Of a stretch of 54,440 nt of DNA, positions 52,245 to 54,440 are shown piece after piece. The position numbers and the translations under genes are program-made. The first letter of the stretch is position 1. Each line of letters opens with the position of its first letter. The notes under the pieces were generated by a model. The model saw only the letters and a list, made by a program, of their open reading frames with translations. It did not search any database and was not told the origin of the DNA. Source of the stretch: Sphingomonadales bacterium Ga0077559 (GTDB lineage: Bacteria > Pseudomonadota > Alphaproteobacteria > Sphingomonadales > Sphingomonadaceae); NCBI GenBank assembly GCA_001464315.1, contig LNFK01000054.1:1-54440 (forward strand). Reading direction: 5' to 3'.

Positions 52245-52967
52245 GTGACCGCCATCACTGACACTAAAACCAAAATCGAAATCCGGCCCTTTATATCGCT
52301 TGGTGCAGCCAATCATGGCTGGCTCAATGCGCATCACCATTTTTCTTTCGCCGATTATTATGACCCGGCCCGAATGAGCTGGGGCGCGATCCGCGTGTGG
52401 AACGATGACATCATTGCACCGCAGTCGGGCTTCCCGCCACACCCACATGCCGACATGGAAATCATTACCTATGTCCGCACTGGCGCGATTACCCACAAGG
52501 ACAGCATGGGCAATGAAGGCCGCACCGAGGCCGGCGACGTCCAGGTGATGAGTGCCGGTAGCGGCGTTCGCCATGCCGAATATAATTTGGAAAACGATCC
52601 AACGACCATCTTCCAGATATGGATCATGCCCAACCGCAAGGGCGGCTCGCCAAGCTGGGGCGCAAAGCCGTTTCCCAAGGGTGACCGGTCCGGCGCTTGG
52701 CAGGTATTGGCGAGCGGCTTTGCCGCTGACGTCGATGCGCTGCCGATCCGGACCGATGCCCGCGTGCTTGGCGCAACCATCAAGGCGGGCGACAGCCTAA
52801 ACTACGAGGTCGGCGCAACGCGCCATGCCTATATGGTGCCTGCAACCGGCTCGGTCGAGATCGACGGTCAGCGCGCCTACGCCCGCGATGGCGTCGCGAT
52901 TGGTGAAGGTCCGATTACAATTACCGCGATTGAGGACGCCGAAATCGTCCTCGTCGACTCCGAATAA
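52245..52967 (+). CDS. Pirin family protein (YhhW-like bicupin)
   Basis: 240 residues. Cupin metal site [20 protein letters not shown] plus [10 protein letters not shown] supply the His/Glu ligands. Opening [20 protein letters not shown] is typical of bacterial pirins, some of which have quercetin dioxygenase activity; the natural substrate is usually unknown. The start is GTG 52245, overlapping the end of AGGAG; no ATG is nearby. Divergent from lysR and followed 62 bp later by wrbA on the same strand. Confidence 0.9.
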
Positions 52968-53029: not shown

Positions 53030-53629
53030 ATGACCAAAGTCCTAGTCCTCTATTATTCCAGCTACGGCCATATCGAAACGATGGCCGAAGCCATTGCCGA
53101 GGGCGCGAGTGGCGCGGGTGCAGACGTCACCATCCGCCGCGTCCCTGAAACCGCGCCGCTTGAAGTCGCGCAGGCCGCGCATTTCAAGCTCGACCAAAAA
53201 GCAGAGATCGCGACCATCGACGAGCTAAAGGATTATGACGCCATTGTCGTCGGCACCGGCACCCGCTTTGGCCGCATGTCCAGCCAGATGGCCAGTTTCT
53301 GGGACACCGCCGGCGGCGTTTGGATGCGCGGCGAGCTCAACGGCAAAGTCGGTGCTGCGTTTACTGCGACAGCATCTCAGCATGGTGGTCAGGAAACGAC
53401 GCTCTTTTCGATCATCACCAACCTGTTGCACTTCGGCATGACCATCGTCGGCCTCGATTATGGCTTCCAGGGTCAGATGCGCAATGACGAAGTCACTGGC
53501 GGCGCCCCCTATGGCGCAACGACGATTGCCAATGGCGACGGAAGCCGCCAGCCAAGCGAGACCGAACTTGACGGCGCGCGCTACCTTGGAAAACGCGTTG
53601 CCGAAACAGCGGCGAAGCTGTCCGCCTGA
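53030..53629 (+). CDS. wrbA: NAD(P)H:quinone oxidoreductase, WrbA type
   Basis: 199 residues. Flavodoxin-like FMN protein that reduces quinones by two electrons, avoiding semiquinones. FMN-phosphate loop [18 protein letters not shown], then [20 protein letters not shown] and [19 protein letters not shown] clear ribosome site (AAAGGAAAT) precedes the ATG. Follows the pirin gene, probably in one operon. Confidence 0.96.
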
Positions 53630-53668: not shown

Positions 53669-53752
53669 ATGGCCTTTGACCTGCCCGAAGACTTGATTGA
53701 AGAAACTTTCCTGGCCTCCACCGGGCCGGGTGGGCAGAATGTCAACAAGGTC
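53669..53752 (+). pseudogene. arfB: 5' fragment of arfB (yaeJ) peptidyl-tRNA hydrolase, interrupted by a mobile element
   Basis: ArfB rescues stalled ribosomes by hydrolysing peptidyl-tRNA with a GGQ motif. The gene starts normally (ATG 53669, FDLPEDLIEETFLASTGPGG) and runs through QNVNKV (to 53752). After that the sequence (CNSPPCISIMQ) no longer resembles the family and the frame stops at 53866. Full ArfB is about 140 residues; only 28 remain. The junction is at or within the conserved GGQ codons, and a serine recombinase follows. The 3' part should lie beyond the element, outside the window. Confidence 0.85.
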
Positions 53753-53766
53753 TGTAATTCTCCCCC

Positions 53767-53785
53767 CTGCATTTCAATAATGCAG
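53767..53785. repeat. Inverted repeat CTGCATT-TCAAT-AATGCAG next to the arfB junction
   Basis: Perfect 7-bp arms around five bases, 15 bp past the last arfB-like codon and before the recombinase. Could be a recombinase arm site or an operator for the recombinase gene. Its role is unproven. Confidence 0.5.
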
Positions 53786-53816
53786 AACTTGGCTTCGATA
53801 GACTACAGTTTGGGGT

Positions 53817-54440
53817 ATGACAAAAGGGATACAGCTACAGTAGGTTTTCGACGCCTGCCCAGATGAAGGGCGACTCACTGCGACGCCAACTGGCAAAGGC
53901 AGAGCGGTTCGCGCTGCAACACGGACTCGAACTTGATACCAGCCTGCGCGATTTGGGTGTGTCAGCTTACACGGGTCAACATCGCAAAAAGGGCGCGCTC
54001 TCCTCATTTCTCGGCAGAATAAAGGCTGGAGAAATAGCCGTAGGCTCGTGGCTGATCGTTGAGAACATCGACAGATTGTCACGGGAAAATGCTTGGGATG
54101 CTTTTGGCATGATCAGGGAAATAGTCGAAAGCGGCATCACGATCGCTTCTCTCGTAGATGATATGATCTATGATCTCCCGAGACTCCAAAAAAGTCCGCA
54201 ACTATTTCAAACCCTGCACGCAGTCTTGACCAAAGGCCATAGGGAGTCGGCTGACAAAGCTGACCGGCTTCAAGAAGTTTGGGCTGAAAAGCGGGCTGGA
54301 ATAATGGATGGCGGAAGAAAAAAGCTCACCCGCCAAGGTCCGGGCTGGCTTTATCTCAACGCCGATGACGCACGAGAGCCCCTTGTCGGTGATTGGGAAT
54401 TTAATGAGCAGGCGCAGATTGTAAGGCGTGCATTTGCCTA
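53817..54440 (+). CDS. Serine recombinase/integrase, partial at right edge, with +1 frameshift near its start
   Basis: The frame from 53821 reads YSYSRFSTPAQMKGDSLRRQ, the resolvase-type N-terminus with the catalytic Ser in RFST. It continues GVSAYTGQHRKKGALSSFLG, SWLIVENIDRLSRENAWD and a linker into the Recombinase domain, and is open to the window edge. The only well-placed ATG (53817) is one base out of frame: ATGACAAAAGGGATAC would read MTKGYSYSRFST if one G were missing. The next in-frame ATG (53863) lies after the catalytic Ser. So the gene is frameshifted by one base, uses programmed +1 shifting, or has a base error. Large serine recombinases commonly integrate phages or islands; this one abuts interrupted arfB. 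Confidence 0.85.

Follow-up and report, generated by a model that had tools for sequence, protein, structure and literature searches.

The right-hand end of the window (the whole stretch of DNA analysed, 54,440 nucleotides, which is the entire contig C54 of a 2.86-Mb, 78-contig genome that is 99.78% complete) appears to hold the left terminus of an element that has integrated into arfB and probably derives from a phage. We put the probability at roughly 80% that the attB of a lineage of temperate-phage integrases is formed by the GGQ codons of arfB, and that the phage brings a site-altered ArfB which supplies ribosome rescue in the lysogen. Direct observation covers the two junctions with their shared core, the empty site, the replacement gene and its constraint, and the same layout in two other species. 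To our knowledge, elements that integrate into conserved genes usually land at an edge of the gene or rebuild one of its ends. In the present case integration strikes the catalytic codons of a factor for ribosome rescue, and a complete, diverged copy with an altered site comes along on the element.

Interruption of arfB in the window

We identified the following features at the end of the window:

52245..52967, + strand: pirin-family gene of the upstream flank, 74% identical to the annotated pirin gene of S. parapaucimobilis, where the gene order is the same
53030..53629, + strand: wrbA, the upstream neighbour of arfB, 74% identical to the annotated wrbA of S. parapaucimobilis
53669..53752, + strand: 5' part of native arfB, 28 codons ending in GPGGQNVNKV, matching RF-1 profile positions 5-30
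53742..53752, + strand: attL core TCAACAAGGTC, 11 bp, common to the second junction at C44:1938-1948
53753..53820, no strand: left arm of the element, from the core to the recombinase frame, with an equal layout in L066 and L067
53821..54438, + strand: large serine recombinase, N-terminal 206 codons (Pfam PF00239, Resolvase, E 1.5e-14), ending at the contig end

Similarity to arfB ended right after the core TCAACAAGGTC. An earlier note on this DNA had described a broken arfB followed by a serine recombinase, and this description was borne out: the 28 codons run to 53752 and the recombinase frame opens 68 bp on.

Second junction and the empty site

The RF-1 profile found five matches in the source genome, namely two long release-factor-like frames, the arfB 5' part, and two adjacent matches at the start of contig C44, where the features were as follows:

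within the first ~1.5 kb of C44 (L006): a 149-aa frame on the opposite strand
C44:1483-1905, oriented like arfB: complete divergent ArfB of 140 aa, 32 bp ahead of the attR core
C44:1938-1948: attR core TCAACAAGGTC
C44:1938 to 2266: 3' part of arfB, beginning at the core
C44, downstream of the arfB 3' part: GAF-domain gene (named by eye)

The other junction and the direct repeat that the earlier note had proposed to look for were both located in this way, with the arfB 3' part of C44 starting at the 11-bp core. We also noted that the ~1 kb upstream of the divergent ArfB (L006, 500-1480) contained no frame of 100 aa or more.

When we joined the two flanks at the core, we obtained an unbroken 133-codon arfB reading frame that, in the comparison with uninterrupted relatives which the earlier note had suggested, aligned with all 29 congener loci compared. 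Identical positions in these loci numbered 51-69 out of 73 nt in the left flank, ahead of the core, and 226-276 out of 330 nt in the right flank. Chance can be excluded since a matching 3' part lies elsewhere in the genome, starts at the identical core, and gives a joined gene without gaps relative to 29/29 congener loci. Serine integrases cross over at a short core; attL and attR here share such a core and join into the empty site, as is the case for a large serine recombinase.

Congener L044 had pirin, wrbA, an intact arfB and the GAF gene, the same neighbours as in the source genome. The downstream GAF gene was present at all 29 congener loci, and wrbA was found upstream, within the fetched stretch, at 7 of them. 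Among eight loci inspected closer, a pirin region took the place of wrbA in six (L042, L039, L037, L032, L035 and L045), and L053 had neither gene upstream.

A query with the arfB 3' part, which detected both copies in the source genome, gave a single match in a stop-free frame in 35 of the 36 same-genus genomes searched, and no match in the remaining one (G304). The interrupted 3' part had a median pN/pS of 0.105 against 21 congeners, compared with 0.088 over 210 congener pairs. The ratio still points to constraint on this part, so arfB was probably interrupted recently. No intact native arfB was found in the source genome. The refuting case named in the earlier note, in which an intact arfB lies elsewhere and the interrupted copy is an old duplicate, does not apply: among the five RF-1 matches, the sole complete ArfB besides the two release-factor-like frames is that of the element.

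The serine recombinase

The window recombinase was 69-70% identical to that of L061, a 43-kb IMG/VR phage record which, at 70%, carries the closest recombinase. The window recombinase has a YSRFSTP motif, of which R-F-S-T is shared with L061, and we take its serine to be the catalytic serine. The frame encoding this motif had no ATG, GTG or TTG between the preceding in-frame stop and the motif, and the first in-frame ATG, at 53863, lies past it. To judge from the reading frame, this copy may be inactive, or there may be an error at the contig end. The Recombinase domain PF07508 scored above its cut-off in all three relatives (L061, L066 and L067) and the zinc ribbon PF13408 in two of the three; the window copy is truncated by the contig end.

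We searched the source genome for the rest of the gene. With PF07508 the sole match was a different, 218-aa recombinase frame on C17, a full-length relative used as the query matched the window alone, and the DNA of the contig end matched only itself, with no assembly overlap leading onward.

With the window recombinase as the sole query, a first genome scan confirmed none of 16 candidates. When the query was an alignment that combined the window recombinase with its phage relative, the genome collection yielded three loci. Across the family, relatives of the recombinase occurred in 19 of 298 genomes, and at E 1e-60 in 18 of 396, the source genome included in both counts. Besides the window, the only one of these relatives with arfB beside it, within fetched flanks of ~1.5 kb, was on a Novosphingobium contig (L087). 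We then built a recombinase tree of 20 rows from 39 tried, after dropping 16 loci without a long motif-bearing frame and three duplicates. The arfB-adjacent recombinases and that of L061 formed one clade (100/100), apart from those adjacent to comM-like sequence.

Related elements in other species

The earlier note had proposed a search for this recombinase subfamily beside arfB in other genomes, and two further elements of the same clade were indeed found in arfB. In S. xinjiangensis (L066), both ends of the element lay on one 496-kb contig, at a distance of 10,207 bp from core to core. The order was arfB 5' part, recombinase (573 aa), transposase (by eye), primase-like gene, methyltransferase, endolysin, complete ArfB and arfB 3' part; the endolysin, primase-like and methyltransferase frames were the three examined. 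In Novosphingobium sp. Rr 2-17 (L067/L192/L083), both ends were found on two contigs, the first with the arfB 5' part, recombinase, terminase, portal, and head and tail genes, and the second with the terminase small subunit, a methyltransferase, a complete ArfB and the arfB 3' part. The two parts sum to a minimum size of ~40.9 kb. Since this element carries TerS, TerL, portal, major head protein and tape measure, we class it as a prophage. The core was identical at both ends in S. xinjiangensis, and in Novosphingobium the ends differed by one mismatch. The source genome and Novosphingobium differ in genus code; three species from two, probably three, genera carry this layout.

Both junctions of the source genome lie near contig ends (the core at 1938 of C44, and the end of C54 at 54440), and the recombinase is truncated, as could be expected if chimeric contig ends or another assembly artefact had split an arfB that is intact in the real genome. 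We consider this extremely improbable, as S. xinjiangensis shows the whole arrangement on a single contig, with a recombinase and a replacement ArfB that are both related to those of the source genome, and a nearly complete source genome yielded no intact native arfB.

The terminase and portal of L061 belonged to the same PHROG families as those of the Novosphingobium element. L061 contained no RF-1 protein, and its record stops where the recombinase begins. In the source genome we found no match to TerL, portal or head proteins of the related phage, the interior of the window element being absent from the assembly. The prophage nature of the window copy rests on its relatives, by comparison with which it is probably phage-derived. 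Among other records, L068 had an N-terminal recombinase piece of 56% identity and no arfB match, and the DNA pattern of the attR arm had no match in viral contigs. A 29-kb, frameshift-rich phage record from viral contigs (L086) opens with FLAASGPGGQNV, apparently inside arfB at its GGQ codons, followed by a clade-related recombinase; it gave no RF-1 match and is weak support for arfB as the target.

The element carries a complete, divergent ArfB

All three element copies matched the ArfB equivalog model NF006718 with 168.5-168.9 bits (cut-off 100). A profile of the element ArfBs aligned with E. coli YaeJ (4v95) over positions 4-139 (E 2.6e-36), with the GGQ motif and the basic tail kept. PHROGs had no family for the single element copy tested. 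All three element ArfBs read GGQHVNTTDS, as against GGQNVNKV in host arfB, and E. coli ArfB (YaeJ) has HVNKTSTA after GGQ, as against VNTTDS in the element. The element copies of S. xinjiangensis and Novosphingobium were 69% and 74% identical, respectively, to that of the source genome. Pairwise among the three, protein identity was 69-74%, pS was 0.69-0.84 (beyond correction in two of the three pairs) and pN/pS was 0.23-0.33. Judged by these substitution ratios, selection has kept the element ArfBs, and they are not carried debris.

The earlier note had suggested that arfB was lost, or that the element might restore a partial gene at its other end. The first is not simply so, since a complete, separate ArfB of another lineage sits on the element, and the second does not apply, as a whole gene of that lineage is carried.

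We surveyed the occurrence of the core in arfB genes. The core, its degenerate form included, was absent from the three element copies and from all 25 chromosomal copies of the VNTTDS type (see below). Among 71 native-type loci, the degenerate core was found in 68 and the exact 11-bp core in 18. The Novosphingobium element ArfB still held GTCAACA.

The earlier note had also proposed integration at an attB placed within the GGQ-coding stretch, and the second junction, the repeated core, the uninterrupted relatives and the two further same-clade elements in arfB all support it. GGQ is the catalytic motif of ArfB. The motif is likewise reported in a passage of PMC4814080. A large serine recombinase would take the GGQ codons of native arfB as attB and would probably cross over within TCAACAA, because this is the stretch over which the two Novosphingobium ends agree before a one-base difference. 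Integration would leave 28 codons of arfB on the 5' side and, on the 3' side, a part that lacks GGQ. As its DNA lacks the full core, the element copy should not be recognised by the integrase, and the loss of the core is the state expected if the integrase must spare the element's own gene. Since the Novosphingobium copy keeps GTCAACA, which is most of the presumed crossover stretch, we infer, and do not observe, immunity to the integrase. Ribosome rescue in the lysogen would be supplied by the element copy, and excision would restore native arfB. If the element copy does supply rescue, an invariant coding site becomes usable as attB at little cost to the phage.

A different lineage may have arrived at the same arrangement. 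In G097 (L137, contig C175, 5541-6330), an ArfB that is complete and belongs to another lineage (GGQKVNKTSSAV) precedes an arfB 3' part that runs from NVNKV onward and shares 99% identity with intact arfB in congener G003. The arfB 5' part was not found in G097 at E 0.1, a search in which short pieces score low, and the contig ends in an apparent transposase (by eye). If real, this may be a second element with the same target codons and the same solution. Among the 397 family genomes, only the source genome and G097 had two ArfB matches at E 1e-8, a threshold at which weaker fragments would not show.

We also considered that an ordinary integration simply knocks out arfB, with the element ArfB as a passenger of use to the phage itself (e.g. 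in rescue during lytic growth) and with the loss tolerated through trans-translation. A passage of PMC11633108 gives ssrA in 2,293 of 2,376 alphaproteobacterial genomes, and in the relatives the element copy adjoins phage genes, both of which would suit such a passenger. In all three two-ended elements, however, the ArfB and the broken gene are neighbours at the attR end and this ArfB is without the full core, and in G097 the same codons mark the join between another complete ArfB and an arfB 3' part. On this evidence we think it unlikely that the copy is only a passenger, and favor a replacement gene that serves the lysogen.

VNTTDS-type ArfB in host chromosomes

ArfB matches at E <= 1e-8 were present in 386 of 397 family genomes, the source genome included. 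At least 24 of the 396 other family genomes had a VNTTDS-type ArfB, with 62-81% identity to the source-genome element copy; this number is a minimum, as the motif was not read in the unfetched genomes, all of which were at most 59% identical. S. parapaucimobilis was a further case, for a total of 25 (L108-L131 and L106). All 25 adjoined the pseudouridine-synthase gene, the GAF gene or both, which places them at the native locus. No separate arfB remnant was found at E 0.01 in the fetched flanks of these 25 loci (at most ~1.5 kb per side for 24 of them). In 8 of the 25, arfB was inverted relative to its neighbours. The same held for 1 of 63 other loci, a set that includes 10 without either neighbour.

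In an ArfB tree of 79 rows, with few columns and with the bootstrap not settled, VNTTDS-type and element copies formed one clade (100/98), in which the element copies took different or unresolved places, distant from the native clade. The tree lacks L121, L123, L133 and L185, which the motif filter missed. L121 and L123 read GGQGVNTTDS and were counted in the core and neighbour surveys.

Two viral contigs from one sample (L104, 9300-10900, and L105, 9100-10800) had an ArfB on the opposite strand amid small phage-like frames. These ArfBs read GGQHVNTTNS and grouped with a locus of another family in the order. They belong to another clade than the element ArfBs.

The presence of the same ArfB clade at the native locus in these sphingomonads could also mean that the VNTTDS ArfB is a host gene, set beside the broken arfB by tandem duplication, and not cargo of the element. 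We find this very improbable: in all three elements the ArfB is inside the core-to-core segment, 35 of 36 congeners have a single match to the query that finds both copies in the source genome, and the tree places the element copies a long way from the native clade. We continue to treat the gene as element cargo.

The patchy presence of VNTTDS-type ArfB within genus codes, the core loss and the inversions fit a takeover of the locus by element copies, and they fit phage capture of a host allele as well. We raise, as a tentative and rather doubtful proposal, that a site-altered phage ArfB repeatedly took over the native arfB locus of sphingomonads and became the only chromosomal ArfB, an allele from which attB is removed and which is immune to integration. 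If true, a phage drives the turnover of a core translation gene.

Comparison with known systems

According to passages of PMC11633108, arfB is present in 2,022 of 2,376 alphaproteobacterial genomes, arfA and rqcH are present in none, and among the tabulated alternatives to trans-translation ArfB is the only one reported for this class. In Caulobacter, ArfB is described as essential when trans-translation is lacking (PMC11633108 and PMC4814080). The finding opens two questions to testing: whether selection acts on backup rescue of ribosomes in lysogens, and how core genes come to be swapped by phages. In the open-access literature, none of the matches listed described arfB as a target of a phage or serine integrase; supplementary target lists may contain arfB.

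SXT/R391 elements supply prfC with a new 5' end and promoter. These integrative conjugative elements likewise integrate site-specifically into a conserved translation-termination gene, that of release factor 3 (PMC2791158). They use a tyrosine recombinase and the 5' end of the gene and are conjugative, whereas the arfB element has a serine recombinase, cuts the catalytic codons and supplies a whole divergent gene. The CP4-57 prophage at ssrA of E. coli is similar in that the prophage state decides the ribosome-rescue pathway, but it lies at the tmRNA gene, inactivation is by excision and not by integration, and the abstract mentions no replacement rescue gene (PMC10107115).

A parallel in the recombinase itself is a set of elements in genomes of the same bacterial family, whose related serine recombinases are 30-42% identical and lie beside comM-like sequence. 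This sequence, which we take to be comM, was found at 9 of the 18 loci of the first set at E < 1e-60 (L009, L010, L011, L012, L013, L014, L016, L017 and L020). At L009 it starts at the P-loop codons GPPGAGKS; for the other eight the query itself began at the P-loop codons, and the junction position was not read. Competence genes are described as enriched among the targets of large serine recombinases in a passage of PMC10083194. The comM elements differ from those in arfB in their target, and the recombinases of the arfB elements form a separate clade in the tree.
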